Shown here one piece after another: positions 17,922 to 41,505 of a stretch of 53,588 bases of DNA. How positions within the stretch are numbered: position 1 is the stretch's first letter; every line of letters begins with the position of its first letter. Source of the stretch: an uncultured Ectothiorhodospiraceae bacterium (GTDB taxonomy: Bacteria > Pseudomonadota > Gammaproteobacteria > S012-40). The stretch covers positions 1-53,588 of the forward strand of contig CALZJE010000018.1 of assembly GCA_945787715.1 (NCBI GenBank), in the 5' to 3' direction. The position numbers and the translations under genes are program-made. The notes under the pieces were generated by a model. That model saw nothing but the letters and a program-made list of their open reading frames with translations. It made no database searches and was not told the origin of the DNA.

Positions 17922-19019
17922 CTAATATTTTTTTCCGCTAAAACTCATAATTGCAGATGCTATACTATCTAATGGCATCTGAGTATCAACTGCGCCTGCT
18001 TCAAAAGCTTCTTTTGGCATACCATATACGATACAACTTTTTTCATCCTGACCAATGGTATAAGCGCCGAAATCATGCATTTCCTTTAATCCTTTAGCAC
18101 CATCATCACCCATACCCGTCATAATAATTCCTAAAGCGTTCTTACCAGCATGTTTTGCCACTGATCGAAACAACACATCGACAGAAGGCCTGTGTCGGCT
18201 CACAAGCGGCCCATCCATTATTTCAACAGTATATTTAAGTCCTACTCGCTTTAAAGTCATGTGTTTGCCACCTGGAGCAATTAACGCTCTACCACCTATC
18301 ACTTCATCACCGTTTTTTGCTTCTTGAACATCTATCGCACAAATTTGATTTAGACGATCTGAAAAAGCTTTTGTAAAATGTTCCGGCATATGTTGCACAA
18401 CAACGATTCCACAACTAGAAACCTCAAGATTTTTTAATACAATCTCCAATGCCTGTGTTCCACCAGTGGAAGTTCCTATTGCGATAATGCCATCGGTATT
18501 TTGGGTAACTCGCTTAGATGCTTTCTGTAGAATAGCATCAGCTGTCAATTTGGGTTGTATCTCTGCAGGTGTAGTATTAATATTCGCTTTCGTTTTTTTG
18601 AGATTTTTTGCTTTGGATGCAGACTTGATAGTATTGAGTATTATTTTATTTTCTTCTGCCAATTTTAATTTGGTCTGAAACTTTGGTTTACAGATTATAT
18701 CGACAGCACCATATGACATTGCTTGCATTGCTGGAGCTGCACCGGATGATACCAAACTAGAACACATCACTACTGGTGTTGGTCTCTCCGACATGATTTT
18801 CTTGAGAAATGTCAAACCATCCATTCTCGGCATTTCTATATCAAGTACAATGACATCTGGCCACTGCTTTTCCATTCGCTTCATAGCAAAAATAGGATCT
18901 GCTACGGCAGCCATCAAATTTAACTCAGAATCAGCAGCAATTAACTCACTTATAACTTGCCTGACAACAGCAGAATCATCGACAATAAGCACTTCTATTT
19001 TTTTGGCTTTACTTGTCAT
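17922..19019 (-). CDS. cheB: Chemotaxis protein-glutamate methylesterase CheB
   Basis: 365 residues. The receiver domain (about 8-130) has Asp14 and Asp15 and the phosphorylation site Asp60 (VIVLDIEMPRMDG). A linker of about 40 lysine-rich residues leads to the methylesterase domain with the catalytic serine in GTSTGGTQAL, the histidine in QHMPEHFT and the aspartate in GMGDDGAKG. It removes methyl groups from receptors and deamidates glutamines once phosphorylated by CheA. Its start overlaps the cheD end by 11 bases. Confidence 0.97.
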   Translation of the reverse strand: MTSKAKKIEVLIVDDSAVVRQVISELIAADSELNLMAAVADPIFAMKRMEKQWPDVIVLDIEMPRMDGLTFLKKIMSERPTPVVMCSSLVSSGAAPAMQAMSYGAVDIICKPKFQTKLKLAEENKIILNTIKSASKAKNLKKTKANINTTPAEIQPKLTADAILQKASKRVTQNTDGIIAIGTSTGGTQALEIVLKNLEVSSCGIVVVQHMPEHFTKAFSDRLNQICAIDVQEAKNGDEVIGGRALIAPGGKHMTLKRVGLKYTVEIMDGPLVSRHRPSVDVLFRSVAKHAGKNALGIIMTGMGDDGAKGLKEMHDFGAYTIGQDEKSCIVYGMPKEAFEAGAVDTQMPLDSIASAIMSFSGKKY

Positions 19020-19479
19020 ATGAGTTCTCCTTTACATACACGGTAATCACCTTGCCTGACTGCCTAAACAGTGAAATTTTTCTTGCGTTTGTACCGCCAA
19101 CATCAGTGCGGCTAATATTGAAACCATGCTCTGTTAATAGTTTAATCACAAAATCCGAGTTTTTTTTACCGATGCTATTCTCCGTGTTTTTAACCAATTC
19201 AGGAAACATATTTCCACCACCAATCACTTCAACATTGTAATCTACAGGCTTTGTTAAACGTGTGGCAATATCAATATGAAGCTTTTTGATCGCACTTTCT
19301 GCAAAACTATAGTCATCTTCAGCACCTTTGCCTGGATGAATTACATGGCACATTCCCGCTATCCGATACCTTGGATGCCATAAAACCGCAGCAACACACG
19401 ATCCTAATAAGGTTTTAATTTCATCATACTGCTCGCCAAAATAAAGTTCTCCAGGATTTAATATGATTTGAGAACTCAT
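19009..19479 (-). CDS. cheD: Chemoreceptor glutamine deamidase CheD
   Basis: 156 residues. The CheD signature is present: TLLGSCVAAVLWHP with the catalytic Cys28, then GMCHVIHPG with His45, and a C-terminal ISLFRQSGKVITVYVKE. CheD deamidates receptor glutamines and in some bacteria interacts with CheC or CheY. No CheC is seen here. It lies 2 bases after cheR and overlaps cheB; the cheR-cheD-cheB order recurs in Che2-type clusters of pseudomonads and vibrios. Confidence 0.95.
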   Translation of the reverse strand: MSSQIILNPGELYFGEQYDEIKTLLGSCVAAVLWHPRYRIAGMCHVIHPGKGAEDDYSFAESAIKKLHIDIATRLTKPVDYNVEVIGGGNMFPELVKNTENSIGKKNSDFVIKLLTEHGFNISRTDVGGTNARKISLFRQSGKVITVYVKENSYDK

Positions 19480-19481
19480 TG

Positions 19482-20324
19482 TTATAGTTTCATATAGATT
19501 GACGGTTTTACTAATTTCACCTTATCAGTGAGACCGTTTAATGATTCAGAGTGACCTACAAATAAATAGCCTTCAGGTCGAATCCGGTCAATAATCTTTG
19601 CAATCAGCTTTTTCTTCGTTTCTTCATCAAAATATATCATCACATTGCGTAAGAAAACGACATCGAAATTTGCAAAACTTGATGGCCAATTTTTCATTAA
19701 ATTCAGGCTTTCAAAGACTAAGTGCTCTTTAACCTTAGGTTGAAACATAACCATACCTTCTTGACTTCGAATGCCTTTCAAACAATATTTAAACATTAGC
19801 TCTTGAGGAATATAATTTTTCTCATCAAGTTGATATCGTCCTAATCGTGCCTCAGCCAACACTTTTGAATTTATATCCGTTCCAATTATTTTCCATGCGC
19901 CATGCAGCTTCAATTCTTCAGCGAGCACCATAGCAATAGTATAGGCTTCTTGTCCGGTTGAACTTGCTGCACTCCAAACATTAAAAGCCTGGCTGCTTGA
20001 AATATTCGGAAGTATATCCGTCTTCATGAAGTCAAAATGTTGCTCTTCTCTGAAAAAATAGGTTTCATTTGTTGTTAAAAGATCGACAACAACCTGCAGC
20101 TCTTTTTTATCTTTACTTTGGGTAACGTGTTTATGATACTGTTCAAAAGTAGGCATCTCTAAACATCGTAATCGAGTTGTAAGCCTTCCTTCAACCAAAG
20201 ATACTTTTGAAGAAGAGAGGGATATACCAGCTTCATCGTAGATAAGTGTTCGAAATGCATCAAATGTCTTCGTCGATAACTTAGGCGAACTAGAAGTATG
20301 TACTTGTTGTTTTTTGGCTAACAT
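19482..20324 (-). CDS. cheR: Chemoreceptor methyltransferase CheR
   Basis: 280 residues from the start MLAKKQQVHTSSSPKL. The N-terminal helical domain covers about 15-85; the SAM-binding domain shows NVWSAASSTGQEAYTIAMVL, IIGTDINSKVLAEAR and VVFLRNVMIYFDEETKKKL. It methylates receptor glutamates. A start 33 bases upstream would overlap the cheW end; the ATG at 20324 lies 8 bases after the cheW stop and is preferred. A receptor in the same operon ends in a pentapeptide-like DFVSF (see 20978-22945) that could dock this enzyme. Confidence 0.95.
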   Translation of the reverse strand: MLAKKQQVHTSSSPKLSTKTFDAFRTLIYDEAGISLSSSKVSLVEGRLTTRLRCLEMPTFEQYHKHVTQSKDKKELQVVVDLLTTNETYFFREEQHFDFMKTDILPNISSSQAFNVWSAASSTGQEAYTIAMVLAEELKLHGAWKIIGTDINSKVLAEARLGRYQLDEKNYIPQELMFKYCLKGIRSQEGMVMFQPKVKEHLVFESLNLMKNWPSSFANFDVVFLRNVMIYFDEETKKKLIAKIIDRIRPEGYLFVGHSESLNGLTDKVKLVKPSIYMKL

Positions 20325-20331
20325 AACTTTA

Positions 20332-20880
20332 TTAACTATTCTCACTTTCAAAAGCAACCAACTCTGAAAGCTCTCTAATCGACAAAACTTCTTCTATTTG
20401 AAGAAGTACAATAAACTTTTCGTCTTTTTTAAGCATCCCCATTACGAACTCCGGCTGAATCTCGGCACCAAAAGACGGCGCAGGAAGTATTTGATCAGAA
20501 AATACATCCTGTACTTCATTAATTTCGTCTACAACAAATCCCAGTTCGATTTGTTCTTCTTCATACTCAATATCAACAATAATGATACAAGTACGTTTTG
20601 ATATAGGTCTTTTTTCCATTCCAATCCGAATCGCCATATCTATAACTGGAACAACATTGCCGCGTAAATTAATCACACCACGTACATTCTCATGTGTAAT
20701 GGGTATATTAGTGATCTGGCAATACTCAATAATTTCTTTTACGCGAAATACTTCTGTCCCGAATATGTGATCATTGATACGGAATGTAAGGTATTTCTCA
20801 ACATTTCGATTCGTCTCATTTACCGTATCTGACTGCATGTCGACCGAGGTTTCGTCTAGGGTTAATGCATGCTCAGTCAT
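20332..20880 (-). CDS. cheW: CheW coupling protein
   Basis: 182 residues. A short acidic N-terminus is followed by a CheW domain: EKYLTFRINDHIFGTEVFRV, then NIPITHENVRGVINLRGNVV, TCIIIVDIEYEEEQIELGFV and the closing FIVLLQIEEVLS. It bridges receptors and CheA. It sits between the long-tailed receptor and cheR, and its last codons abut the cheR start, so translation is probably coupled. This is the more canonical of the two CheW proteins here. Confidence 0.95.
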   Translation of the reverse strand: MTEHALTLDETSVDMQSDTVNETNRNVEKYLTFRINDHIFGTEVFRVKEIIEYCQITNIPITHENVRGVINLRGNVVPVIDMAIRIGMEKRPISKRTCIIIVDIEYEEEQIELGFVVDEINEVQDVFSDQILPAPSFGAEIQPEFVMGMLKKDEKFIVLLQIEEVLSIRELSELVAFESENS

Positions 20881-20977: not shown

Positions 20978-22945
20978 TCAAAAACTTACAAAATCTTTTT
21001 CAATATCGCTGAGTTTAATATCAAAAATTGAATCATCGTTTTTCTTTGAAGAAGCCTGTTTAGGTTTCTTCGATCCTTCATGATTAACCTTTGTGACATT
21101 TAATTCGCTGTCTGGTCTCTTTATCGAATCTCGATTTAATGGTGCTGATCTTGTTTTATTCAGATGAGTTGTTTTTTGTCGATCGACATTCTGATCACTT
21201 TGTTTTATAGCAGCGGAAACGCGCGGCTTCATAATCTTTTCAGAGACTTTATTTACTTTTTCAACCGCAGTTGTTTTACGAGTTTTGGGCAACGATTCTT
21301 GATTTTGTTGAACAGCTTTTTGAGCCATCTTTTTAGTTCTGGCGTTATTTTCTTCAGTCTTAATTGCAGAATTCTTATTGCCTGGAATAGATTCATTATC
21401 GTTGGAACCTATACCACTCTTAGTTTTTAAACCCAAACGCCCAGCAGGCAATTTATTTTTACCCTGTATTTTGTCCACCGAATCATCGTTATTTACAATC
21501 TGCATGTTAACATCATTCAATTGTGCATGGAGAAAGCCAGAACTTTCAATGTCAAGTGACTCAATAATCAGTTTTACATCTCTTAATTGACCACCAATAT
21601 CTGACGCGAGATTTGATAATTCTACAGATGCAGTAGCCCCATGAGTTGCAGTTCTATCCAACTTGCTTATATCAATATTAATTTGGTTAACACTATTTGA
21701 TTGCTCAATCGATGAACTATTAATTTCACTGATTAACTCAGCTGTTTTCTGGATATTAGGTACAATGCTGCCAATTAATTCACCAGCATTCTCAGATATT
21801 TTCACGCTATTCAACGATAGTTCACTAATTTCTTTAGCAGCAATTTGGCTTCTTTCTGCTAGCTTTCTTACTTCATCCGCTACAACGGCGAATCCTTTAC
21901 CTTGCTCCCCAGCTCTAGCAGCTTCAATAGCAGCGTTCAACGCTAGTAAATTCGTTTTGTATGCAATATCCTCTATTACACCAATCTTAGAAGAAATGTT
22001 ATGCATAGCATCAACAGTATTATTCACTGCTGCTCCACCTTCTTCAGTGTGGGCCGACGTTTCAATAGCAATTTTAGATGTATTGTTAGCGTTCTCGGTG
22101 TTTTGATTAATTGAAGTTGCAAGTTGCAACAGCGATGTGCTCGTTTGTTCTATGCTGGAAGCTTGCTCACTTGAAGATTGACTAAGTGATTTTGAAGTGT
22201 CACTGACTTTGGTTATTGCATCCGATATTTTTTCAATCCCATTTTTAGCATCATCCAACACCTTGTTTATTCTTGCAGAAAAGGTATCAAACAATCTCTC
22301 AGTTTCATTGATGCTAGATTTATTACTCGTATTTAAAGTTTCTTCATCTGATATTGACATCATTAATTTCAATCTTTCATTAATGCGTTTTAGAGGAGCC
22401 ACATGAGAAGATAGATAAATAGATCTAAACAAGTATAAGGATATAAGTAATAGCAGAATAACTATAAATGAAGATGTCATTACATAGTCATTAAAAACAC
22501 CAGTGGATTTATTGATTGTATGAAGTTCAGCTAATATGGCAGCCTCTACTGCGAAGGCAGATGAAAGGAATTCACTGATCTCAGCAATTGATAATTCACC
22601 ATCTGCATTGTGTTGTTCACTCAATTCTTCCTTGAGTTTAGTGACTTCTTCGGAAAGCCTTGCCATCTGCTTACTAATTTCTTCATTATTGAAGGAGAAA
22701 GCAGAAACATTAGTAATATCTTCGATATGTTCAATTAGTGCGTCTTCTCTAATACCCATTGAAGTCAATTCTTTGAGCGTATTTAGTTTTTCTAAGTATG
22801 ATAAGTGATTATTTTCAACACCTGTCGACAGAGTCGTTTGCTGCTTACTAACAACAATATTGTAAATCCCATAACAGGCGAATAGCAGTATCGAAAGCGC
22901 AATAAATAACTGCTTGCTAGACATAAATAAAACATGTGGTTTCAT
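20978..22945 (-). CDS. Chemoreceptor with a long basic tail and C-terminal pentapeptide-like motif
   Basis: 655 residues. Two membrane segments (about 11-29 and 153-176) flank a periplasmic domain of about 120 residues; the segment after the second resembles a degenerate HAMP. The signalling hairpin tip is at about 320-350 ([20 protein letters not shown]). After the coiled coil ends near 470 there are about 180 residues of low-complexity sequence rich in Lys, Asn, Ser and Arg, finishing KDFVSF. The last five, DFVSF, fit the x-[aromatic]-x-x-[aromatic] pattern of CheR/CheB tethering pentapeptides such as NWETF. This makes it a likely adaptation platform for the CheR and CheB encoded next to it. 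The tail length is unusual. Confidence 0.9.
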
Positions 22946-22984: not shown

Positions 22985-25291
22985 TCAATGAAGAGATGTA
23001 CTACTTTGTGAAGGATTTATATTACTCTCAACATGTGGCAATACTCGAGTTGCTCGTTGTATTAAGTTGGGAACGTCAATAATCACTGCCACAGCACCAC
23101 TTCCAAGAATGGTTGCGCCACTCACACCTTTCAGGTTTTGAAGTATTTTACCCAATGGTTTGATGACAGTTTGTAACTCTCCCAATAGCTCATCTACAAC
23201 AAAACCTGCTTTATGATCACCACACTGAACAACGACTATACTTTTGTGGTTTGGCTCTTTACCCTCTTCTTTAAAGTAGTCTCTCAAGCGGATAAACGGC
23301 AGAACCTCTCCTCTTAAATTGATATATCCTTGTGTCTGCTCGTGAACATCATCTTCTTCTGATAAATCAATACATTCATGCACCATATCGAGCGGAATAA
23401 CATAAGAGGAATCACCCACTTTCACCAGAAATCCATCAATAATTGCGAGTGTTAATGGGAGACGAATGCTTACCGTAGAGCCTTTACCCATTTCGGAATC
23501 AACATCCACAGTGCCGCGAAGGGCATGGATGTTCTGTTTTACCACATCCATGCCAACACCACGTCCAGATAAATTCGTCACCGTTTCCGCTGTCGAAAAA
23601 CCCGGCTCAAATATGAGTTTGTATATTTCATGGTCACTTAGAACCTGTCCTGATGAAATGAGATTTCTATCCAGTGCTTTTGCCAGTATTTTTTCTTTAT
23701 CTAAACCGCGCCCATCATCTTTCACTTCAATAACAATAAAGCCTGAATCATGGAAGGCATTGAGACTTAAATTGCCATTTTCTGATTTACCAGACTTTAG
23801 CCGGTCTTCACCTTGTTCAATGCCATGATCCATTGCATTTCTTACCAAATGCATTAATGGATCTGAAATTCGTTCAACCACCGTTTTATCCAACTCTGTT
23901 TCAGCTCCATTGATCGAAAGATCAATTTCCTTTCCTAAATCCTTACTCACATCCCGGACCACACGTTTAAATCGAGAGAATGTTTCTCCAATTTGTACCA
24001 TGCGTAAATTAAGCGCACTATCTCGGATTTCTTCTACGAGATGGCTAACGCTAGAAACAGCTTCTATAAGTGTTTCATCATTAATTCTATTAGCGAGCAT
24101 ATTGGTTGTAGCACCGGCAATGACTAATTCACCGACGAGATTAATTAACACATCAAGTTTTTCCGCATCTACTTTTAATATACGATTGGGCTGGACGAAT
24201 TTTGATTTTTCAACGGCAACATTTTGAGTCTTAGTTTCTATAGGCAGATTGTTTTCTTTGTTGTTTTCAGTTTCACTTGTTGCGTCTGACTCATCGAGAC
24301 TGAAATCCCCTGTCTGCTTCTTTAATGCGACATCAACTAGCTCTTTATGTATTAAATTATTCTCAACCAATAATTCTTCTAATTTTGGAATATCTTCTCC
24401 AGAGGATTCGTCAGCAACAAGTCGTTCTTGTTCCTCCAATACTTCATCAAGCTCAGTTAACGTTAGCGCGCCACTAGCAACAAGAATTTCTCCCAACGCC
24501 ATGTTGCTTTCAGGCAAATCACTAATGACACGAGCATAGCGATTAATACTGGCTTTTGGTGATAATATATGGATTTTACACATATCCCTGACAAACTCGA
24601 ATACCTGCTCAATTTTTTGTTTATTTTGAGAACAACTATAGTTAATTTCAAATCCTAGGTAACAGTCTTCAGGATTAAACGAATCATCTATTGGCAAACG
24701 GTCAAACATCGTTGTAATTAGGTCGATACTTCCAATTTTATTCAAATACATGAGAAAGGAACTAGGATCCATTCCATTTTGTAAAACATCAGTGTCGAAT
24801 CTTAAAGAAATATGCCACCATGCAGTTTCAACGGTTGGTCCTACTTCTTGCTCACCATCTTCACTATCTTCACCATCATGCTCATCCAGTTCAGGCACAA
24901 ATTCTTTAACTTCAATATATTTACAAAGTAAACCACGTAATGAAAGTTCTTTTTCCTTTGATTCTGCACTTATCGGCGTATTATTTATAGCATGTTCAAC
25001 AAGTATTTTAGTATGGTCTGCACATTCCAGAAGCAATGCAATCAATTCATCATTCGCAGAAATTTCCCCATCACGCATCTTATCGAGCAGATTTTCCATA
25101 ATGTGGGTAAAACTTACGACATCATCAAAGCCAAAAACGCCAGATGTACCTTTGATGGTATGCATAGAACGGAAAACTGATGCGATGAAATCAGGATTTT
25201 CCGGTTCTTTTTCCATCTGCAACAAAACATCTTCCATTGTCGTCAACAGATCATCGCATTCTTGCTTAAAAGTCTCTTCTGGTGTACTCAT
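22985..25291 (-). CDS. cheA: Chemotaxis histidine kinase CheA
   Basis: 768 residues. The P1 Hpt domain has the phosphorylation site His44 (RSMHTIKGTSG). An extended middle region (about 140-355) is acidic and includes a block ILVASGALTLTELDEVLEEQ, which is not a standard P2. P3 dimerisation starts near 365 (RILKVDAEKLDVLINLVGEL). The P4 ATPase shows HLVRNAMDHGIE (N box), VKDDGRGLD (G1) and LSGRGVGMDVVKQNI (G2). P5 is a CheW-like domain (INLRGEVLPFIRL). It passes phosphate to CheY, CheB and possibly CheV. It is 43 bases after the STAS gene and 39 bases before the long-tailed receptor. Confidence 0.97.
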   Translation of the reverse strand: MSTPEETFKQECDDLLTTMEDVLLQMEKEPENPDFIASVFRSMHTIKGTSGVFGFDDVVSFTHIMENLLDKMRDGEISANDELIALLLECADHTKILVEHAINNTPISAESKEKELSLRGLLCKYIEVKEFVPELDEHDGEDSEDGEQEVGPTVETAWWHISLRFDTDVLQNGMDPSSFLMYLNKIGSIDLITTMFDRLPIDDSFNPEDCYLGFEINYSCSQNKQKIEQVFEFVRDMCKIHILSPKASINRYARVISDLPESNMALGEILVASGALTLTELDEVLEEQERLVADESSGEDIPKLEELLVENNLIHKELVDVALKKQTGDFSLDESDATSETENNKENNLPIETKTQNVAVEKSKFVQPNRILKVDAEKLDVLINLVGELVIAGATTNMLANRINDETLIEAVSSVSHLVEEIRDSALNLRMVQIGETFSRFKRVVRDVSKDLGKEIDLSINGAETELDKTVVERISDPLMHLVRNAMDHGIEQGEDRLKSGKSENGNLSLNAFHDSGFIVIEVKDDGRGLDKEKILAKALDRNLISSGQVLSDHEIYKLIFEPGFSTAETVTNLSGRGVGMDVVKQNIHALRGTVDVDSEMGKGSTVSIRLPLTLAIIDGFLVKVGDSSYVIPLDMVHECIDLSEEDDVHEQTQGYINLRGEVLPFIRLRDYFKEEGKEPNHKSIVVVQCGDHKAGFVVDELLGELQTVIKPLGKILQNLKGVSGATILGSGAVAVIIDVPNLIQRATRVLPHVESNINPSQSSTSLH

Positions 25292-25655: not shown

Positions 25656-26024
25656 CTATGCGGGTAACAATTTTGAAATTGCATCTAACATTTGAGCCGG
25701 CTTGAAGGGTTTCACCATCCAGGCTCTAACTCCATACTCTTTACCTGCATTTTTTTTGTCCTCACCTGATTCTGTGGTTAACATTATAACGGGCGTAAAT
25801 TTATACTCAGGCATTGATTTAATAGTTTTCACCATTGTGAGGCCATCCATAATAGGCATATTCACATCGCTGACGATAAGGTGTATCTTGTTACCTTTGA
25901 GCTTATCCAAACCATCTTGTCCATCACAACCCTCAATGACAGTATATCCACCACCTTTCAATGCTATTGCTACCACCTGACGTAAAGATGCTGAATCATC
26001 TACTACTAAAATTGTTTTTGACAT
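25656..26024 (-). CDS. cheY: Response regulator CheY
   Basis: 122 residues, a lone receiver domain. Asp9 and Asp10 (VVDDSASLRQ), phosphoacceptor Asp53 (LIVSDVNMPIMDG), the conserved Thr in VIMLTTES and Lys in WMVKPFKP are all present. It carries the signal from CheA, either to the flagellar motor or to another target. It follows the short receptor-like gene and precedes the STAS gene. In related F7-type clusters the CheY does not always act on the motor, so its target is open. Confidence 0.96.
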   Translation of the reverse strand: MSKTILVVDDSASLRQVVAIALKGGGYTVIEGCDGQDGLDKLKGNKIHLIVSDVNMPIMDGLTMVKTIKSMPEYKFTPVIMLTTESGEDKKNAGKEYGVRAWMVKPFKPAQMLDAISKLLPA

Positions 26025-26055: not shown

Positions 26056-27153
26056 TTAAAAAAACTCCAACCCACCGTCATTCTCGGAATCAACTTTTTC
26101 ACCCTGATGTATATTTCTTTCTTCATCTGTTGTATAACTATTTTCGAGTGTATCCATTAGCTTTTGCGAATGAAATTTCACATCGTTACTATTCATACCG
26201 ATCTTCACAAAGTCAGCATATTCGTGCAGTCCATCACAAGCATGAATGAGTATTTGGCTAACCCTATCCTGGAATTGCAGCGCAACAAGTAGATCATTAA
26301 TTTCAGAAGCTATTCCTGCATTTTCTTCCGTCAAAATATCAGTAGATTTTGCTAAACCTTCGGTAACAAGATGCAGTTGCAACATGACTTTCTCAATAAC
26401 ATCTCTGCCCTCTTCTTCACGCTTGAGGTCTTTTTCCATACTACTCATTGCTTCTTCTAGTGTTCTTTCTACAGAGTTGTTGAACTCCTTGACCTTAATT
26501 GCGATTTTCTTTCCTGCTTCACCCGACTTTACCGATAACTCCCTCACCTCATCAGCAACAACTGCGAAACCTCGACCAAACTCACCTGCCCTGGCGGCTT
26601 CAATTGCGGCATTTAGCGCTAACAAATTAGTTTGTGATGCAATCTGCTCAACGGCCTCTGCCATATTGTTCAGGTCGCCAGTACCAGCTGCCAAATATTT
26701 TAAATTTTCCAGCGATTCTTGCCGGGCCATTGTCGCTTCATTCATCCCTTCAACTAATGTTGTTAACTGACGTTGACTTTCTGAAAAAACATCCGTCATA
26801 TCTCCTGAGTCATCTGTACCATTTGTGCGGCACACATCTTCAGAAGCTTGTTTTGAAACATTTATTCTTGATACGATTTCGCCAAAGCGATTTGCCATAT
26901 CCGTAATCGCTTTCTCGACTTGCTCACGAGAATTATCAACTTGACGAGTAATGATAACGACGACTTTTTTACTAATCTCTTCAAACTCTTCCAGCTTCAA
27001 TTTATCAGTATTTTCATCGTCACTTACCACTACCCCATCATTCGTGACTCGTAAATTATCAACAACTTTATTTACTTTGCTATTTTTTGAAAAATAGAAA
27101 CCGAGTAGAATCCCCACTATTATTGATATTGATGCGATAATAAAATAATCCAT
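26056..27153 (-). CDS. Short receptor-like protein with one membrane anchor and no sensor domain
   Basis: 365 residues from [14 protein letters not shown], chosen because AGGG lies 7 bases before this ATG; an upstream ATG at 27240 would add 29 residues without a clear ribosome site. One membrane segment (about 2-20) is followed directly by a cytoplasmic part without periplasmic sensor or HAMP. The receptor hairpin tip is present ([20 protein letters not shown]), and the C-terminal block [20 protein letters not shown] recurs in short receptors of this class. It ends GGLEFF, which does not fit the pentapeptide pattern. It opens the set cheY-STAS-cheA and may signal from inside the cell. Confidence 0.88.
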
Positions 27154-27291
27154 CGTTTTCCCTAACCACAGTGTAATGCTTCCTTGCATCAAACCTGCCG
27201 CTGTGGGCATCCAGAAATTGCGATTAATAATATTTAGCACTTTTAATCCTCAAGACTACCAATTTTTATCAACTACAACTATCACATCAAA

Positions 27292-28878
27292 CTAGCCTAC
27301 ATTTTTGTCCAGTTTAAAGTAGCCAATTAAGCTTAAAAGATCTGTCGCTTGGGCATTTAACTCTTCTGATGTTGCAGCCAACTCTTCCGAGGCCGCAGCA
27401 TTCTGTTGTGATACAGAATCAAGTTGGCGAATTGCAGTGTTAATCTGGTTTACGCCTGATGATTGCTCCTCTGTAGAGGCACTTATTTCTTGCACCAGTT
27501 CAGCAGTTTTCGAGATATTTGGAACAAGCTCTGTTAATAAGTTTCCAGCTAGCTCGGCGACCTGAACGCTTTCCGTTGAAAGTTCATTAATTTCTTGAGC
27601 TGACATTTGGCTACGTTCGGCAAGCTTTCGCACTTCATCAGCAACGACAGCAAAGCCTTTCCCATGCTCACCAGCTCTAGCAGCTTCAATTGCTGCATTC
27701 AACGCTAATAAATTTGTTTTATAGGCAATGTCTTCTATCAAACCAATCTTATCTGCTATTTGTTTCATTGCATTTACCGTATTACCTACGGCTTCACCAC
27801 CTTTTGATGCTTCGCTCGCAGCTTCAGTTGCAATGGATTCTGTTGTTTTTGAATTATCCGAGTTCTGATCAATTGAAGCAGAGATTTGCTCTAAAGATGC
27901 AGAGGTTTCTTCAATACTGCTGGCTTGCTCCGAAGCTCCCTGACTGAGGCTTTGTGAAGTAGAACTCACTTGTTCAGTTGCAGAAGTCATCCCTTCAACA
28001 GCTGAGCGTACTTCAATCATTACGCCCTGCATTCGTTCGACAAAACCGTTGAATGCCTCTGCAGTTTGACCAATTTCATCTCTTCCAAATTCTGGAAGGC
28101 GTTGTGTTAAGTCCCCTTCTCCATCTTTTAAATCGAGCGATGCAGCTAACATTTGATTAACTGGCTTAATAATACCTTGGCCAATAACGAATGCGAGTAG
28201 TGTGACAAGGGCAAAACAAATGGCAGCAACGATTGCAATTTGAATCATTGCTTGAATCGCAGTTTTATCTGCTTCTTCAGTGCGTCTTTCAGCTAGCGCC
28301 CCAACCTTTCCAAGAAACTCTTCTAAATGATGAACCACTTTCTCCGCTTCGACCTCAACCCCGTGCGATTTTTCAAGCGCATGACTAACCTCACCATTAT
28401 CAAAATCATGAAATATCTCCATAACATGCTCTTCAAACGATTTCACTTCTTTTTCAACACTCAAAAGTTCACTTTTAAGTTTTTCAAATTCTGTTACATC
28501 AGCGGGAGCGATTGTTGTAGATAATGCAGTATCAAGAATGTTATTCGCTGTTTTAATATGTGTAAGAATCTCTTTACCTATTAGTTCAAATTCATGCTCT
28601 ACTTCTTGATATCGAGTCAGAGTTTCTTCATTAGAATCTTTGATTGGGCCTAAACGTATTGCCTTCTCAATCAAAACATCCATTTCCAATTGCTGCTCTG
28701 TAATCGTAGTAACCTCTTTTGTTAAAGGTAGATCGTATTTAGCAATCGAAGCAATTTGATGCTCTAGCTCATTAATATCCACAATAGATAAAGTTGATAT
28801 AATGATCATCCCTGTTAAAGCAATTCCTGCGATAACCCATATTTTGATTGCTATTTTTAAGTTTGCTAAAAATTTCAC
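27292..28878 (-). CDS. Methyl-accepting chemotaxis protein with helical-bundle sensor
   Basis: 528 residues. Membrane segments are at about 12-31 and 211-235, around a periplasmic four-helix-bundle-like sensor of about 180 residues. HAMP is at about 235-290 ([20 protein letters not shown]), and the signalling domain tip lies near 385-420 ([20 protein letters not shown]). The distal coiled coil ends [13 protein letters not shown]. It is on the operon strand, 138 bases before the short receptor gene start, so it may be the first operon gene. No pentapeptide is present; adaptation would depend on enzymes tethered to other receptors. Confidence 0.93.
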
Positions 28879-31991: not shown

Positions 31992-34900
31992 ATGAGCACA
32001 GTTACAGCTTCTTATTCGGCCATTAAGCTACTCGCCATCGCTGGCGTTTTCGCTGCGTCGGCAGTAACGATATATTATTTCGCCAATGAGAAGTATGCGT
32101 CACAACAAAATGAACAAGAATTAATCTCTCCCATCTCTCCAGTAACTGTTGTTGAAAAAACTCATCTATCTCCAACGCAAATCAAGCCGTCTGAATCGTT
32201 CGACAAAAGTAGGGAGTTAACTGAACTAGAACGAGCCGCTTTTGAGGAACTGGCCCAATCAAAAGATCGTGAAATAGATGACACATTAATTGTTTCGATA
32301 AGCAACGCCTATTTTCTTCTACGACAATCCATTAATAATTACAAATCCACAACATCTAAATTCACGCCTAGCGAAGTTGCATTTTTTTCATCCGTAGAAA
32401 AACTTACTTTTGTTGATGCGTTAATCAAAAGCAATTCTTTAAGCAGCGATCATAAAGCAGAGCTTTGGATTGTCACTTTTTGGCAAGCCCTGATAAATCA
32501 AATTAATTTATTTCACTCGAAAGCAATCGACTTACACATTAGTACTATTAATCAAGCGCCGGTGAGCGAACAATCAAACAAGCAAAGAATCTTAAAGCTC
32601 ATTGAGCAGAACTATCTTGTTGCTTCACCAGAGAAGCGTGATCCTGAGCAAACTGAAGTTATTATCAATCTACACAACAACATTTTAGGCAAACATCATC
32701 CTAATATAGCCGTTTACATTAATGCATTAGGAGAACATTATTTCGTCACTAAACAGTATGAAAAAGCAGAAGAAAGCTTTGAGCGTGCATCTGCCATTTG
32801 GGAACGCAGCGTTTTACCTGATAACGCTATACTCGAAAAACACTATAAACAATTAGCACAAGTCTACATCCACCTGAAAAAATACGATAACGCAGAAAAC
32901 ATTTACCAAAAGCTTCTAGACAATTATGCACTGACATTACCGCCAAATGATCCCATACGATTGGAGGTGTTAGACCAGCTAGCAGGGCTCTATTTGCTAC
33001 AAAATAATTACTCTTCCGCAAGCCAGTATTATAGGCAGGCCCTAGAGCAATGGAGAACAGTACTAGATGCTGAAGATTTCCGACTGGCAAGTAAAATCTC
33101 AAGCCATGCAGATGTACTAGTCATTCTTGGAGACTATCAGCAAGCTGTTAGCTTATACGAAGAAGCTCTAACAATTTTAGAAATTGAGTACGGGCTCGAA
33201 AGTAAAGAATACGCAAGCGGTTTAGCTAAACTCGCTGAAACATATCTACTACAGGCCAAGTATGAAAAAGCGTTGTCTCTTTTTCAATCACTGGCGGATA
33301 ATCTAAAGCCCAACTTGAGTTCTGATGACCTCGTTATCGCAAATACGCTATATCAAATGGGTAAAATAAACACCATTCTGGCAAACTATAAACTAGCCAA
33401 GATTCAACACTACAAGGCGCTGAAGATTCAACAAAAGTATCTTTCTGATAACTCCCCAGAAATCTCTGACACATTACATAGTTTGGCAAACTATTTGTTA
33501 GTTACTGGTCAATTTAGGCATGCCCATAAAACAATTTTAAAAAGCATTCGCTTAAACAAGTCAAAATATGGAAAGCAACACCCACGATATGCCGCTGATT
33601 TAACATTACTTGCCAATATTTATTTTCAGTTAGGCCAATTTAACAACGCAGAATCCTTTTACCTTCAATCTCAACAAATACGCAAGCGTTATTTTCAACC
33701 CAACTCTGTGGCAATGCTTGATAATAAATTTGGATTAGCGCTAATCGATACAGATCAGGCTAATTATACGAAAGCAATAAAAGCTCAGAAAGAAATTTTA
33801 ACAATTCGGAAAAAACTTCTATCAAAAGCGCATCCGGATCTAACCCGAAGTTATATTGCACTGGGTAAGCTTTACCGCATCATGTCAGACTATCAAAAAT
33901 CCAGCGCCATGCTAAAAAATGCTGATGACGCTTTAAAAAATTTCATGAAAAAACAGCATCCATTAAAAGCACAACTGCTCAATGAGCAAGGCTTACTTGC
34001 GTCTGCATTGGGTAATTATGCAAACGCTGCCATATCTCAAAAAAATGCCCTTGCTATGAGAATTGAGCTATTTGGAGAAAAACATATCGATGTTGCTGTT
34101 AGTTTAAATGATATTGCCGACCGAATGAGTTTAAACGGAAAATATGAGCAAGCCATGCCACTTTATGAAGAATCAATTAGACTATATACAAACACATTGG
34201 GCGCAACTAATGTAAAAACAGCTAAAAGCACTAACAACCTTGCAGGACTCTATCTTCAAAAAGATGATTTAAAAACTGCTGAAGAACACATTACCAACTC
34301 GGCACGAATCTTCAAAATAACTACCAATCAAAATCACCCCTTCATTGCGCACAATCTAAACAACCAAGCTATCTATTCTAGAAGACTTAAAGATTTTGAC
34401 ACGGCTGAAACTTTCTATCACAGAGCAGAAAATTTATTAGCGACTTCATTAGGTAAAGATCACCCTGAATACGCAACCAATCTTAATAATCAAGCTGTAT
34501 TATTTATGAGTCGTAATAAACAGGAAAAAGCGGAACAACTTTTCAAACGCTCTCTTAGTATTCTATCTGCTACCGTAGGGAATGAACATCCATTGTATGC
34601 TATAACTGCCAACAACTATGCAACTTTACTTTTTCAAAAAAATGATCTTTTAAATGCAGAAAAGTATTTTTTGAAAGCTTTAACGATCCGAGAAAATAAA
34701 TTAGATAAAAACCATATAGCTCTCGCTGATTCGCTAAGCAACGTAGCTGATGTTTTTATACTAAAAGAAAAATATTCAGAAGCAGAACAAAAACTGAGCC
34801 AAGCCAAAACGATTTATAAAAATCAAAAGGGTGAAAAAGCTCCCATCTACTCTCAAACACTTGCAAAAATCGCATCTATCTATCACAGACAAAAATTGTA

Positions 34901-35048
34901 TACAAAATCTGATCAATTATACCAACAAGCCATTAATTTAATGGAATCTAACTTCTCATCGGAGCATCCGATTTTTCTCAACATTCTCGATGATTACAAA
35001 CGTTTACTTAATGACGCAGGTAATGCACTTATATCTATTTCGAAATAA
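31992..35048 (+). CDS. Large membrane-anchored TPR protein
   Basis: 1018 residues. One N-terminal hydrophobic segment (about 12-28) without a lipobox suggests an inner-membrane anchor. From about residue 215 to the end there are well over a dozen repeats of about 42 residues of the kinesin-light-chain-like TPR kind (blocks such as YEKAEESFERASAIWER, NNAESFYLQSQQIRKRYF, AEKYFLKALTIRENKLDKNH). TPR arrays are protein-binding scaffolds. The next gene, 17 bases on, is a TssB-TssC fusion, so the two are almost certainly one operon and this protein may be its partner or anchor. No catalytic domain was seen and the function is unknown. Confidence 0.85.
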   Translation: MSTVTASYSAIKLLAIAGVFAASAVTIYYFANEKYASQQNEQELISPISPVTVVEKTHLSPTQIKPSESFDKSRELTELERAAFEELAQSKDREIDDTLIVSISNAYFLLRQSINNYKSTTSKFTPSEVAFFSSVEKLTFVDALIKSNSLSSDHKAELWIVTFWQALINQINLFHSKAIDLHISTINQAPVSEQSNKQRILKLIEQNYLVASPEKRDPEQTEVIINLHNNILGKHHPNIAVYINALGEHYFVTKQYEKAEESFERASAIWERSVLPDNAILEKHYKQLAQVYIHLKKYDNAENIYQKLLDNYALTLPPNDPIRLEVLDQLAGLYLLQNNYSSASQYYRQALEQWRTVLDAEDFRLASKISSHADVLVILGDYQQAVSLYEEALTILEIEYGLESKEYASGLAKLAETYLLQAKYEKALSLFQSLADNLKPNLSSDDLVIANTLYQMGKINTILANYKLAKIQHYKALKIQQKYLSDNSPEISDTLHSLANYLLVTGQFRHAHKTILKSIRLNKSKYGKQHPRYAADLTLLANIYFQLGQFNNAESFYLQSQQIRKRYFQPNSVAMLDNKFGLALIDTDQANYTKAIKAQKEILTIRKKLLSKAHPDLTRSYIALGKLYRIMSDYQKSSAMLKNADDALKNFMKKQHPLKAQLLNEQGLLASALGNYANAAISQKNALAMRIELFGEKHIDVAVSLNDIADRMSLNGKYEQAMPLYEESIRLYTNTLGATNVKTAKSTNNLAGLYLQKDDLKTAEEHITNSARIFKITTNQNHPFIAHNLNNQAIYSRRLKDFDTAETFYHRAENLLATSLGKDHPEYATNLNNQAVLFMSRNKQEKAEQLFKRSLSILSATVGNEHPLYAITANNYATLLFQKNDLLNAEKYFLKALTIRENKLDKNHIALADSLSNVADVFILKEKYSEAEQKLSQAKTIYKNQKGEKAPIYSQTLAKIASIYHRQKLYTKSDQLYQQAINLMESNFSSEHPIFLNILDDYKRLLNDAGNALISISK

Positions 35049-35065: not shown

Positions 35066-36577
35066 ATGCCAGCAAGCACAATTAATTTAGGTAGTGTAAA
35101 TATAGGTGATGGGAAAAATCAATCAATACCAACATCGAAAGAGATGCCATTTCACTTATTGATCCTTGGGGATTTTTCCGCTGAGACTAAATCCCTTCAC
35201 CCCCTTAAACCAATAGAAATTGACCGCGACAATTTTGAAGAAATATTTGAACGGTTCTCTCCCTCTCTTAATCTTGAACTTTCAAATGAAAGCTTGGTAT
35301 TTAAAGAACTTGAACATTTTGAGCCTGATTACCTTTACAATTCACTGAACATATTCGGACAATTAAGATCATTAAAACGCCGTTTGTCAAATACTGATAC
35401 CTACCCAATTGCTGCTGATGAAATTAATAAATGGACAAATCAAGAATCTACAACTACGATTGAAAACCAACCAAAAGATACTGGCACTGAAGATATTCAA
35501 GCGTCCGACAATTTGTTAGACTCCTTACTAAACACGACAGAACAACGTCAACAATCGAATAGTCAACTCTCCCCGAGTAATATTGCTGAACGAATTATTA
35601 AAGATATTATTGCCCCATATATATCACCTGCAACCAATCCAAAACAGCCTGAATACATTAGAATCACTGATGCTGCGATTGCTGATGAAATGAGTCAAAT
35701 CCTCCACTCTGATAAATTTCAACCATTGGAGTCATTATGGCGTGGGATATATTTTCTAGTAAAACGATTAACAACTGATACCAAACTTAAAATCTTCATC
35801 GCTGACATAAGCAAAGAACAGCTGACAAGCGACCTGAATCAAGACAGTATCCTCTCAACAGAACTTTATCGAAATATTATCGAACCTTACAACTCAGCAA
35901 ACAGCAATAAACCATGGTCGCTGATTTTAGGTCATTATCAATTCAAAGAAACCGTTGGTGATATTCAATTGTTAAAGACGCTTTCAAGCTACGCAGCTGA
36001 ATGTAACGCCAGCTTTGTTTCAGAACTACCGAGTACTTTTTTCGGCTGTGAAGATATTAATACAAAAGCTGATTTTGAAAACTGGACTTACAGCTTGGAA
36101 CACGATGTTTCGTCTGCATGGAATGAACTTAGACATTCAGCTCAGTCACAATACTTGGCACTTGGTTACCCTCGTTTTCTTCTCAGATTACCATACGGAA
36201 GTATGAGCAAATCAGTAGAAAGTTTTGAATACGAAGAGATGACCTCACCTGTTCACGGTAACTATCTCTGGAGCAATGGAGGTTTGGCCATAGCCTATAT
36301 CCTCGCTGCTTCCTATAGTGAGTATCAGTGGCAGTTCAAACCAGGTCAACTCAACGAGATTTCCAATTTGCCAATTCACACTTATACTGATGAGCATGGT
36401 GATAAAGAAAGTTATCCATGTGCAGAAATCTTGCTCACTGAACGCGCAGCAGAAAAAATTATCACTTCAGGAATTATCCCCTGTTGGTCTGTAAGAAATG
36501 TTGATGCTGTGCGTGTGGGCCCGTTTGTATCCGCCAATTCCAATTCACGAATTCTAAGTGGTAGGTGGCTGGCTTAG
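35066..36577 (+). CDS. TssB-TssC fusion-like sheath protein (type VI secretion relative)
   Basis: 503 residues. The first 110 residues resemble TssB/VipA: PFHLLILGDFSAETKSLHPL, the IDRDNFEEIFERFSPSL block and FEPDYLYNSLNIFGQLRSLK. A low-complexity linker (about 115-170) follows. From about 175 the protein follows TssC/VipB: FQPLESLWRGIYFLVKR (about 217-233), then WSLILGHYQFKETVGDIQLL, YPRFLLRLPYG (about 367-377) and NYLWSNGGLAIAYILA. TssB and TssC normally form the contractile sheath as separate proteins. None of the baseplate, membrane-complex, Hcp, VgrG or ClpV genes is in the window. A good ribosome site (AAAGGAAG) precedes the ATG. It is co-transcribed with the TPR gene. Confidence 0.85.
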   Translation: MPASTINLGSVNIGDGKNQSIPTSKEMPFHLLILGDFSAETKSLHPLKPIEIDRDNFEEIFERFSPSLNLELSNESLVFKELEHFEPDYLYNSLNIFGQLRSLKRRLSNTDTYPIAADEINKWTNQESTTTIENQPKDTGTEDIQASDNLLDSLLNTTEQRQQSNSQLSPSNIAERIIKDIIAPYISPATNPKQPEYIRITDAAIADEMSQILHSDKFQPLESLWRGIYFLVKRLTTDTKLKIFIADISKEQLTSDLNQDSILSTELYRNIIEPYNSANSNKPWSLILGHYQFKETVGDIQLLKTLSSYAAECNASFVSELPSTFFGCEDINTKADFENWTYSLEHDVSSAWNELRHSAQSQYLALGYPRFLLRLPYGSMSKSVESFEYEEMTSPVHGNYLWSNGGLAIAYILAASYSEYQWQFKPGQLNEISNLPIHTYTDEHGDKESYPCAEILLTERAAEKIITSGIIPCWSVRNVDAVRVGPFVSANSNSRILSGRWLA

Positions 36578-36786: not shown

Positions 36787-37014
36787 ATGTGTCTGGCCAT
36801 TCCGGCAGAAGTGATATCAATCGATGGCGATGTTGCCCAGGTCTCATTGGGCGGTGTGAAAAAAGAGATCTCTTTGGCGCTGGTTGATGATGTAGTGATA
36901 GGCGACTTTGTATTACTTCATGTGGGTTATGCCCTGAATATAATAAACCAGGAAGAGGCGGAAAAAACACTGCAACTCTTCGTTGAAGCAGGCATGTTAG
37001 AGATCCAATCATGA
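36787..37014 (+). CDS. hypC: Hydrogenase maturation chaperone HypC
   Basis: 75 residues, starting MCLAIPAEVISIDGD with the essential Cys2 of the HypC/HupF family, then the OB-like segment VSLGGVKKEISLAL and GDFVLLHVGYALNII. HypC binds the iron carried by HypD and delivers the Fe(CN)2CO unit to the hydrogenase large subunit. Its stop overlaps the hypD start (ATGA at 37011). It is the first hyp gene here; the 5' neighbour is unrelated. Confidence 0.96.
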   Translation: MCLAIPAEVISIDGDVAQVSLGGVKKEISLALVDDVVIGDFVLLHVGYALNIINQEEAEKTLQLFVEAGMLEIQS

Positions 37015-38126
37015 AATACGTCGATGAATTTCGTGAACAACAACAGGCCAAGGCCATTGCTACTACCATTGCCAAAGAAGCAAAAAGCGAACGCCACTAT
37101 CGGTTAATGGAATTTTGTGGCGGCCACACCCACGCCATCTTCCGATATGGCATACCAGATCTTATGCCCGACAATGTCGAATTTGTGCATGGTCCTGGCT
37201 GCCCTGTTTGTGTCTTACCCATCGGTCGTCTTGACGAGGCTATGCAGCTGGCAGAAAAACATAAAGTGATACTCTGCACCTACGGTGACATGATGCGTGT
37301 TCCCGGTGGCAAAAGACGTAGCCTGACCCAGGCCAAAGCAGACGGTGCAGATATCCGCATGGTCTATTCCACCCAGGATGTATTAAAAATCGCTCGTGAT
37401 AATCCCGGGCAACAGGTGGTTTTTTTCGCCATCGGTTTCGAGACTACGACTCCACCCACTGCAGTGGCCATCAAACAAGCCAAAGCAGAAGGACTAAAAA
37501 ACTTCTCCGTATTCTGTAACCACGTACTGACCCCGGCAGCACTTGGCGCCATCCTTAATACCGACAAGCCGGTCGACATCGATGCTTTCCTCGGCCCCTC
37601 ACACGTTAGTACTATTATCGGAAGTCGTCCCTACGAACGCTTTGCCGAGCAGTATGGCAAGCCTATCGTCATTGCCGGTTTTGAACCACTGGATGTGATG
37701 CAGTCAGCACTCATGGCTATACGTCTGGTTAATGAAAACCGTAATGTCGTGGAAAACGAGTACACCCGCGCAGTGACCCGAGCCGGTAACACAAAAGCCC
37801 AAGCACTGGTCAACGAAGTCTTTGAACTGCGCAGCAGTTTCGAATGGCGCGGGCTAGGATTAATCCCTGATAGTGCTTTGCAGATTCGCGCAGAATATTC
37901 CGAGTATGATGCAAAAAAACGCTTCCTCGTGCAGGCTCAACCAGTTACCGATGTCAAAGGCTGTGAATGCCCGGCCATCTTGCGCGGTCAGAAAAAGCCA
38001 ATGGAATGCAAACTGTTTGGTACGGTTTGTACACCGGAAAATCCCATGGGCTCCTGCATGGTCTCTTCAGAAGGTGCGTGCGCTGCCTATTGGAGTTATG
38101 GCCGCTTTCGATCAGAGGCGTCATAA
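37011..38126 (+). CDS. hypD: Hydrogenase maturation protein HypD
   Basis: 371 residues, normal. The motifs are FCGGHTHAIFRYG (with the active-site Cys), GPGCPVCVLP, the FFAIGFETTTPPTA segment, GPSHVSTIIG and the C-terminal cluster of cysteines (DVKGCECPAILRG, GTVCTPENPMGSCMVSSEGACAAYW) that holds a 4Fe-4S cluster. HypD is the scaffold on which the Fe(CN)2CO moiety is built with HypC. The codons are more GC-rich than those of the TPR and TssBC genes to the left. It overlaps hypC, and its stop overlaps the hypE start. Confidence 0.97.
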   Translation: MKYVDEFREQQQAKAIATTIAKEAKSERHYRLMEFCGGHTHAIFRYGIPDLMPDNVEFVHGPGCPVCVLPIGRLDEAMQLAEKHKVILCTYGDMMRVPGGKRRSLTQAKADGADIRMVYSTQDVLKIARDNPGQQVVFFAIGFETTTPPTAVAIKQAKAEGLKNFSVFCNHVLTPAALGAILNTDKPVDIDAFLGPSHVSTIIGSRPYERFAEQYGKPIVIAGFEPLDVMQSALMAIRLVNENRNVVENEYTRAVTRAGNTKAQALVNEVFELRSSFEWRGLGLIPDSALQIRAEYSEYDAKKRFLVQAQPVTDVKGCECPAILRGQKKPMECKLFGTVCTPENPMGSCMVSSEGACAAYWSYGRFRSEAS

Positions 38127-39237: not shown

Positions 39238-41505
39238 ATGAACGAAGAAAACTCCAAGCGTCTCCATTGTGAAATCACCGGCACTGTCCAAGGAGTGGGC
39301 TTCCGCCCCTTCTGCCATGGCCTGGCACAACGTTTCAATCTCAGCGGTTGGATTTTAAATCACGGTAGTGGTGTCAGCCTGGAGATTCAAGGCAATACCA
39401 TTGATCAATTTTTACAGGCATTAAAGGCAGAATTGCCACCGTTAGCGCGCATCGAACAAATGGAACAACAAACTGTTCCAACACAAATAAATGAACGAAG
39501 TTTTATCATTCGTAAAAGCCGACAAAGTGCTATTACAGCCGCCATTCCACCAGATAGCAGTGTGTGTTCAGAATGTCTGAAGGAATTATTTGATCCGGCT
39601 AGCCGTTTCAGCCGTTATCCATTTCTCAATTGTACTCGCTGTGGTCCGCGATATACGATTACACATAGTTTGCCCTATGATCGTAACAACACGGCTATGT
39701 CGACGTTTGAATTATGTCCAGAATGTGAAGCTGAATATAATGATCCTACGAATCGCCGCTTTCATGCACAACCTACAGCCTGCCCCGCTTGCGGCCCTCA
39801 GCTTTCTATGCCTGTCGATGAAATTGTGCAACGCTTACGGCAAGGACAAATTCTAGCCGTCAAAGGATTGGGCGGTTTTCATCTGCTCTGTGATGCGTGC
39901 AATCACGAGGCGGTGGAAACTTTGAGAAAACGAAAAAACCGGGAAGCAAAACCTTTTGCTGTGATAGCTGCAAATCTATCTAGCCTAAAACAGTTTGTTA
40001 TTATTGATGATGATGATGATGCAACCCAGGCACTGCTGGAAAGCCCACAACGCCCTATTGTATTAGCGCCTAAAAAAACCAATAGCGGGCTGTCCTCCCT
40101 TGTGGCACCCGAGTTAAATTGCTTGGGAGTCGTGCTGCCCTACACACCGCTTCATTATCTGATTTTTAATTCAGCGATGGGCAATCCCAGTGGCACCGAT
40201 TGGTTACAAAAAAGTGGTGATTTCGCTTTGGTGATGACTAGTGCTAATCCTGGCGGTGAACCACTCGTCATTGATAACCTGGAAGCAAAACAACGCCTGC
40301 GTAGCATTGCCGATGTCATTGTTGATCACAACCGTATCATCGTCACTCGTTGTGATGACAGTGTTATGAAGATTACTAATAAGATACCCCGTTTTATCCG
40401 TCGAGCACGCAGTTATGTTCCACAAGCCATCAAACTGCCCTACGAGATTCCATCCACCTTAGCCGTTGGCGGCCATTTAAAAAACACGGTCTGTGTCACC
40501 CGAGGTGATGAGGCGTATTTATCGCAACACATTGGCGACCTTAAGAACCGAGCCACCTTTAATTTTTTTGAAGAAACCATCCAACACCTGCTAGATACAC
40601 TGGGGGTAAAACCTGAAATCGTTGCTCACGACAGTCACCCGGATTTTTTTAGCAGCCGTTTTGCTCAAAGATTCGGATCTCCCACACTGGCCGTTCAACA
40701 CCACCACGCCCACTTGGCTGCCGTAGCTGCGGAACATCACATCACCCAACCATCCATCGGCTTGGCCTTGGACGGCTTTGGCATGGGGGAAAACAATCAA
40801 AGCTGGGGTGGTGAATTGATGTTGATCGACAACGAGCATTATCAACGCATCGGTCATCTGACGCCGCTGAAACAGCCCGGTGCTGATCGTGCCGCTCGCG
40901 AACCATGGCGTATGGCAGCTGCAGTGTATGAACGGCTGGGGCGAAGCCAAGAAATTACAGTACGCTTCAAGCAGACAGGGGTGAAGCAGTTACAGCAAAT
41001 GTTAGATAAAGGATTCAATTGTCCTGAAACGAGCAGCGCTGGCAGACTGTTTGACGCCGCTGCTGGCCTACTCAACGTTCAAAGCATTAGCGACTACGAA
41101 GGCCAGGCTGCCATGAAATTGGAAAGCCTCGTCACCCAAACCGAGATCATGGAAAATGGCTGGCAGATCCGTAATGGCCAACTTGACCTACTGCCGGTGT
41201 TGGAACGGTTAATCAATTGCGATCCCGTTCGCGGCGCGAACCTCTTCCACGGTACCTTAATCGCCGCTCTAAGTGACTGGCTTAAACAGGCTAGCATTCA
41301 ACATAACATAAGCACCCTATTACTGGCCGGTGGCTGCTTTCACAATCAAGTATTGAGTTCAGCACTATTGCAAGATTTAACAAGGCAAGGCTTAACAGTC
41401 AGATTATCAGAGCAAGCCCCTAGCAATGATGGAGGTCTGAGCCTGGGGCAGGCCTGGGTGGCTGGAATGAGCTTAAAAAGAAAGTGGACTAAGGGTTCCG
41501 CGTAA
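39238..41505 (+). CDS. hypF: Carbamoyltransferase HypF
   Basis: 755 residues, full length. Domains in order: acylphosphatase-like (about 7-95, TGTVQGVGFRPFCHGLAQRF), two zinc fingers (about 108-185, CSECLKELFDPASRF, CTRCGPRYTITHS, CPECEAEYNDP, CPACGP), a YrdC-like domain (about 195-385, AVKGLGGFHLLCDA) and a Kae1-like domain (about 400-750, QHHHAHLAAVAAEHH and ALDGFGMGENN). It makes carbamoyl-adenylate from carbamoyl phosphate and ATP and loads HypE. It follows hypE after 74 bases. A terminator follows. Confidence 0.97.
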   Translation: MNEENSKRLHCEITGTVQGVGFRPFCHGLAQRFNLSGWILNHGSGVSLEIQGNTIDQFLQALKAELPPLARIEQMEQQTVPTQINERSFIIRKSRQSAITAAIPPDSSVCSECLKELFDPASRFSRYPFLNCTRCGPRYTITHSLPYDRNNTAMSTFELCPECEAEYNDPTNRRFHAQPTACPACGPQLSMPVDEIVQRLRQGQILAVKGLGGFHLLCDACNHEAVETLRKRKNREAKPFAVIAANLSSLKQFVIIDDDDDATQALLESPQRPIVLAPKKTNSGLSSLVAPELNCLGVVLPYTPLHYLIFNSAMGNPSGTDWLQKSGDFALVMTSANPGGEPLVIDNLEAKQRLRSIADVIVDHNRIIVTRCDDSVMKITNKIPRFIRRARSYVPQAIKLPYEIPSTLAVGGHLKNTVCVTRGDEAYLSQHIGDLKNRATFNFFEETIQHLLDTLGVKPEIVAHDSHPDFFSSRFAQRFGSPTLAVQHHHAHLAAVAAEHHITQPSIGLALDGFGMGENNQSWGGELMLIDNEHYQRIGHLTPLKQPGADRAAREPWRMAAAVYERLGRSQEITVRFKQTGVKQLQQMLDKGFNCPETSSAGRLFDAAAGLLNVQSISDYEGQAAMKLESLVTQTEIMENGWQIRNGQLDLLPVLERLINCDPVRGANLFHGTLIAALSDWLKQASIQHNISTLLLAGGCFHNQVLSSALLQDLTRQGLTVRLSEQAPSNDGGLSLGQAWVAGMSLKRKWTKGSA

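Follow-up and report, generated by a model that had tools for sequence, protein, structure and literature searches.

Why does one receptor of a bacterial chemotaxis cluster continue for about 180 residues past its signaling coiled coil and only then end in DFVSF, a sequence resembling the pentapeptides that tether the methyltransferase CheR? We examined this receptor within the window, i.e. the whole stretch of 53,588 nucleotides of DNA that was analysed, and compared it with homologs in related gene clusters.

The tailed receptor and its cluster

The receptor is encoded on the minus strand by a 655-residue ORF at 20978-22945 that matches the Pfam family MCPsignal (E = 9.8e-35). The genes of its cluster are all transcribed from that strand, in the order CheV, a tail-less MCP, an MCP-like protein, CheY, CheA, the tailed MCP, CheW, CheR, CheD, CheB and a further CheW. 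The features considered below are:

17922..19019 (-), CheB methylesterase, a possible second pentapeptide binder (Pfam)
19009..19479 (-), CheD (Pfam)
19482..20357 (-), CheR methyltransferase, the predicted tether partner (Pfam, structure alignment)
19746..19778 (-), β-subdomain loop of this CheR, KGIRSQEGMVM, equal in length to that of peptide-bound Salmonella CheR (alignment)
20332..20880 (-), CheW (Pfam)
20978..22945 (-), 34H-class MCP of 655 residues with a long C-terminal tether (ORF, MCPsignal match, arm lengths)
20981..20995 (-), terminal pentapeptide DFVSF, residues 651-655, the predicted CheR docking site (motif and conservation)
20996..21550 (-), linker, residues 466-650, predicted to be mostly disordered, net basic and without a Pfam domain (AlphaFold2, composition, Pfam)
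21590..21646 (-), C-terminal methylation region of the tailed MCP, VE and SD (relatives mostly EE and EE)
21866..21952 (-), conserved hairpin tip of the tailed MCP (alignment)
22100..22177 (-), N-terminal methylation region of the tailed MCP, EQ, EQ and LQ (relatives mostly EQ, EE and EQ)
22985..25291 (-), CheA (Pfam)
25656..26024 (-), CheY (named from sequence)
26056-27240 (-), MCP-like hairpin protein near cheY, with a motif at 26239-26304 and an end, GGLEFF, at 26059-26076
27292..28878 (-), tail-less 34H receptor with five of five methylation pairs, a predicted tether client (Pfam, alignment)

Family searches of the organism's own genome recovered 16 MCP ORFs, four CheR, three CheB and one CheZ, the last on another contig.

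The AlphaFold2 model of the tailed MCP, for which 17 aligned sequences were supplied, is helical as far as residue 464 and has beyond it only two short helices (471-476 and 539-545) and a turn (649-651), with pLDDT below 50 for residues 466-645 and 651-655. Residues 466-650 comprise 28 K, 8 R, 13 D, 10 E, 19 N and 19 S, and codon-position GC over residues 471-655 (0.44/0.33/0.27) closely matches that of the body (0.43/0.36/0.28). The first-pass annotation had described a chemoreceptor with a disordered tail of about 180 residues, rich in lysine, asparagine and serine, that follows the coiled coil and ends in an x-aromatic-x-x-aromatic tethering pentapeptide; the tail is in frame where it had been placed, its composition counts agree, its disorder is likewise predicted by the model, and residues 651-655 fit the motif. 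We also considered repeats and known domains as sources of the linker and rejected both, as the linker DNA holds one 14-nt repeat pair, one imperfect 12-nt inverted pair and no others, and no Pfam family matched the tail.

The terminal pentapeptide and the cluster CheR

Scanning genome contigs with the cluster CheR yielded only five named homolog loci, at 34-38% identity. For a wider survey, 40 regions were chosen by hand, and thus non-randomly, from the top of lists of CheR relatives; with the cluster of the source contig they give 41 homologous clusters from 37 genomes. We defined an F-type tether as x-F-x-x-[FYH] followed by 0-5 residues. A receptor of the tailed-MCP kind was absent from the stretch fetched in 9/41 clusters and present in the other 32, where it had an F-type end in 28, a W-type end in one (L144, VWQEF) and neither in three. 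These three are L139, which is tail-less; L115 (5000-6700, +), whose F-type tether is broken, reading DFEPI-KGVG without a second aromatic; and L143 (8932-11274, -), whose DFEPF is displaced to seven residues before the end. Tether loss in progress is possible in both L115 and L143.

The receptor at the same cluster position in a congener ends in DFVKF-D, and F652, the second position of the pentapeptide, is invariant in all 17 aligned orthologs. The linkers of the two congeners, by comparison, are no more similar than shuffled sequences (274 of 500 shuffles reached the observed score). The first-pass annotation had pointed to conservation of the last five residues against divergence of the linker as the comparison that bears on a tether, and this is the pattern that orthologs display.

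We then counted tethers in 146 distinct MCP C-terminal halves from the first 40 regions, 40 more regions and earlier loci, accepting only aromatic pairs at least 150 residues past the hairpin tip and at most six residues from the end (cut-offs that exclude L143 and L115). This gave 41 F-type and 49 W-type tethers. Within the F-type tethers, position 1 is D in 23/41, position 2 is F in all 41, position 3 is E or V in 29/41, position 4 is R or K in 31/41, and position 5 is F in 34, Y in six and H in one. W-type motifs are terminal in 49/49, always with an acidic position 4, whereas F-type motifs often (12/41) stand 1-5 residues before the end.

Might DFVSF match the motif by chance, the tail being a decayed extension without a partner? 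The serine at position 4, shared by five of the 41 F-type tethers, and the degenerate methylation regions of the receptor would suit such an origin. Against it, the strict terminal motif occurred in only one of 366 non-MCP ORFs (in five of 366 when up to five residues may follow), the background being six-frame ORFs of at least 250 residues from the source stretch and the first 40 regions, some of which are not genes; the frequency of F-type ends among homologous clusters speaks against it too. We consider a chance match highly improbable. In the organism's own genome, 2/16 MCP ORFs end in two aromatics so spaced, one with DFVSF and the other, on contig C6, with EWEEF. Judged from these comparisons, the DFVSF end is predicted to be an ordinary CheR-type docking peptide, and the unusual part of the receptor is the length of its tail only.

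Receptor class was assigned from the lengths of the hairpin arms. The N-terminal arm measures 68 in 12/12 distinct F-type sequences matched and 75 in 11/11 W-type ones; the C-terminal arm measures 104 in 35/38 matched F-type sequences (111 in the other 3/38) and 111 in 46/46 W-type ones, so that each F-type arm is seven residues, or one heptad, shorter. The C-arm pattern left 44/146 rows unmatched, including the tailed MCP, whose pair stands at 104 by residue number. In the own-genome alignment the gap pattern of class 34H is found in 2/16 MCPs, the tailed MCP and the tail-less receptor at 27292-28878. On these arm lengths the tailed MCP is assigned to the 34H class. Pentapeptide receptors have been described as mostly 36H with tryptophan and in a minority as 34H with phenylalanine or tyrosine, the 34H receptors carrying xF/YxxF/Y and pairing with a CheR group of their own (PMC2577667). 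34H receptors are further reported to use F8 systems, and the F8 system of P. syringae shows the same pairing of a 34H pentapeptide receptor with a long-loop CheR (PMC11253619). The presence of a 34H receptor with a pentapeptide and of CheR in one cluster suggests an F8-type system here.

The cluster CheR, encoded two genes downstream of the tailed MCP, aligned best among solved structures with Salmonella CheR (1af7/1bc5), and its docking loop is ungapped relative to 1bc5. The loop is gapped in P. aeruginosa CheR1 (5y4r) and in the organism's CheRs on contigs C5 and C52; it is present in the CheR on C6, which has N at 194 and adjoins the EWEEF receptor (~650 bases). The published contact residues Q182, R187, G188, G190, G194 and R197 correspond to F, K, G, R, G and M in the cluster CheR, of which 3/6 are clearly different (Q182→F, G190→R and R197→M) and R187→K is a further replacement. 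Among 40 CheR relatives (a set excluding matches below 180 bits, Salmonella CheR, P. aeruginosa CheR1, the cluster CheR and the three own-genome CheRs), position 187 is K or R in 37, G188 is kept in 37 and G194 in 35, and position 190 is R in 16, position 197 is L, M, I or V in 27 and position 182 is F in none. R197 has been linked in print to the tryptophan of the peptide, and we infer that its replacement by M may suit phenylalanine at peptide position 2. Across loci, loop integrity and tether presence were weakly associated (27/29 vs. 8/12, p = 0.05).

The 34H class, the F8-type gene content and a cluster CheR with a docking loop together place the tail in a known kind of CheR tether, and the conserved last residues, the diverged linker and the cognate CheR support the tethering role first proposed for it. 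Our preferred reading, to which we give a probability of roughly 0.8, is that the tail is an F-type CheR tether that docks on the loop of the cluster CheR, with the linker as a disordered spacer expanded in this lineage. DFVSF would dock on the β-subdomain loop of the CheR from the same cluster, and the docked enzyme, held near the receptor array, would methylate the tailed MCP and its neighbors more; linker sequence and charge would meanwhile have drifted freely while the last residues were held. Binding of CheR to DFVSF and methylation of the receptors in reach are expected by analogy with Tar/Tsr; that a tethered CheR assists neighboring receptors is established in E. coli (PMC10561060).

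The tailed MCP shares with Tar/Tsr (NWETF) a terminal x-aromatic-x-x-aromatic sequence, a disordered linker past the coiled coil and a matching CheR β-loop, but Tar/Tsr have W at position 2 and linkers of 30-34 residues, whereas the tailed MCP has F, a linker of 176-185 residues and a CheR lacking R197. With the Geobacter 34H receptors that end in EFEKF and pair with group B CheR (PMC2577667) it has in common the 34H arms, the xFxxF end and CheR in the cluster; its linker exceeds several-fold the F-type linkers of our survey, which do not include those of Geobacter, and the motif in the surveyed F-type tethers often stands 1-5 residues ahead of the C-terminus. The P. syringae F8 system (PSPTO_0912/PSPTO_0910; PMC11253619) likewise combines a 34H pentapeptide receptor with a loop-insertion CheR in the cluster; here, by contrast, a tethered 34H receptor is accompanied by a tail-less one.

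Linker length, charge and methylation sites

With its start set 138 residues past the hairpin tip and its end at the pentapeptide, the linker of the tailed MCP is 176 residues long, whereas the other 40 F-type linkers span 20-80 residues (F-type median 33, n = 41). The yardstick of 30-40 residues used in the first-pass annotation agrees with this median and with published linkers of 29-39 residues in Pectobacterium and 30-34 in E. coli (PMC10561060), and the linker is indeed unusually long. Among W-type tails, comparable lengths are reached only in L156 and L182 (172 and 188 residues); the third-longest W-type tail has 81 residues. L156 and L182 are EWEEF receptors in which a CZB zinc-binding domain (Pfam E = 3.3e-12 and 1.6e-11) lies between the signaling domain and the pentapeptide, an arrangement already in print, whereas the similarly long tail of the tailed MCP holds no Pfam family. 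Among the 90 tethers, the linker of the tailed MCP is thus the longest without a recognised domain, the Pfam scan of tails having covered these three.

The linker is also the most basic of the 41 F-type linkers, with a net charge of +14 over 176 residues. F-type linkers, the tailed MCP included, vary in net charge from −7 to +14 with a median of −1, and W-type linkers have a median of +3, so that basicity is not a trait common to F-type linkers and length is what stands out. The first-pass annotation had suggested that the charge might bind the membrane or nucleic acid. Apart from the charge itself, little favors a tail that functions through binding of this sort: it has no Pfam domain and just two short predicted helices, and the idea lacks comparative support, since basicity is no general feature of F-type linkers and this linker has diverged to shuffle level from that of its congener. 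We regard a function of the charge as improbable.

What might the length itself do? Chain statistics computed with the constants used in PMC10561060 put the root-mean-square span at 6.9 nm for 176 residues compared with 3.0 nm for 33-34, and chain scaling gives a local enzyme concentration about 12-fold below that at 34 residues. Reach to more neighbors, as first proposed, is plausible on these estimates. Because it combines a wider span with about one-twelfth of the local concentration, a long linker would trade the receptor's own methylation for that of its neighbors.

The methylation regions bear on this trade. Taking the methylated positions to be those given by Tar numbering, the tailed MCP keeps 2/5 canonical E/Q pairs and its tail-less partner 5/5; the second position is still E or Q in 4/5 pairs of the tailed MCP. 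All five pairs are present in 32/39 signaling domains of its group. The terminal branch of the tailed MCP is the longest of the 39 (0.93; next 0.68, median 0.22), and its root-to-tip distance ties with that of L141. Both counts use 39 of 41 signaling domains, a set of 41 from which truncated receptors and the MCP-like group (recognised by its ending) had already been left out. A general rule by which longer linkers accompany methylation loss was rejected: the long-tailed L109, L111 and L116 keep 5/5 pairs, and the other most degenerate receptors are L141 (1/5) and L143 (2/5).

The longest branch, the 2/5 vs. 5/5 pairs and the finding of only two 34H receptors among the 16 MCPs led us to consider a two-receptor 34H array in which the tailed MCP would be a long-range CheR dock and its tail-less neighbor the main methyl acceptor, the linker having been selected for reach. 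The trade of self for neighbors is consistent with a tailed MCP that has lost sites beside a partner that has kept them. We nevertheless consider such a division of labor rather unlikely. If it held, docking and substrate roles, combined in Tar/Tsr, would here be separated. Whether or not reach was selected, this linker is a natural extreme of length and as such offers a test of the trade-off between reach and local concentration.

Linker length is accounted for equally well if the tether works and the extra length is neutral slack in a fast-evolving receptor. The long branch and the lost pairs fit such slack, as do the shuffle-level similarity of the two congeneric linkers, the near absence of repeats and the occurrence of just one domain-free tail of such length among 90 tethers. 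Less easily reconciled with slack are 185 codons that have stayed open with a codon bias like that of the body and end in a conserved peptide, and the congener's tail, which is also among the longer F-type tails. We judge neutral slack to be quite possible, at a little under even odds. It is compatible with the F-type tether that we prefer and denies a role to length only. Given the rapid evolution of the tailed MCP and its loss of methylation pairs, part of its tail may also be drift in a weakening gene.

A CheZ-like stretch in the MCP-like neighbor

Between cheY and the tail-less receptor lies the MCP-like protein at 26056-27240. Its relatives occur in L016, several of L109-L146, L166, L167, L179, L180, L184 and L186, and their C-termini are aromatic (..xFF or ..VELF). 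In the 28 members of this group found in the loci, a QFxDxxxQ motif stands 112-114 residues past the tip and the end is [LFM]F (once FFL). Motif and aromatic end occur together in 27/146 C-terminal halves and neither occurs in the other 119. All 24 aligned MCP-like proteins keep the Q, F, D and Q of the motif, and a CheY ORF overlaps or lies within 700 bases of 20/21 of those in cluster regions.

In CheZ, the D and Q of this motif are the catalytic residues. The own-genome CheZ stretch DILMAQDFQDITGQII aligns with a 16-residue stretch of the 26056-27240 protein, and hhalign of these two proteins as a single pair gave E = 5.4e-5 and a probability of 67%. In local alignments with CheZ the motifs are in register in 21/27 MCP-like proteins, and scores are higher for MCP-like proteins (median 62) than for other MCPs (47), with overlapping ranges (highest other MCP 70). 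The 26056-27240 protein itself scores 95, a value reached by none of 1000 shuffles. Pfam found no CheZ domain in it, and the Foldseek matches listed (the best 50 of 730) include chemoreceptors and other coiled coils and no CheZ.

The protein may be a chemoreceptor hairpin that serves as a phosphatase for CheY. In print, the C-terminus of McpA is described as conserved and of unclear role, and McpA-like receptors are treated as 24H outliers; in the accessible portions of the open-access literature searched, we found no proposal of a CheZ-like role. If true, the phosphatase reading would give McpA-like/24H receptors a role.

Elsewhere in the window, a 503-residue ORF at 35066-36577 (+) has matches to T6SS_VipA (residues 23-111) and VipB (198-491), both halves of the contractile sheath, in one protein, and adjoins a 1018-residue TPR protein at 31992-35048. 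The same stretch carries the hydrogenase-maturation genes HypD (37011-38126, +) and HypF (39238-41505, +).
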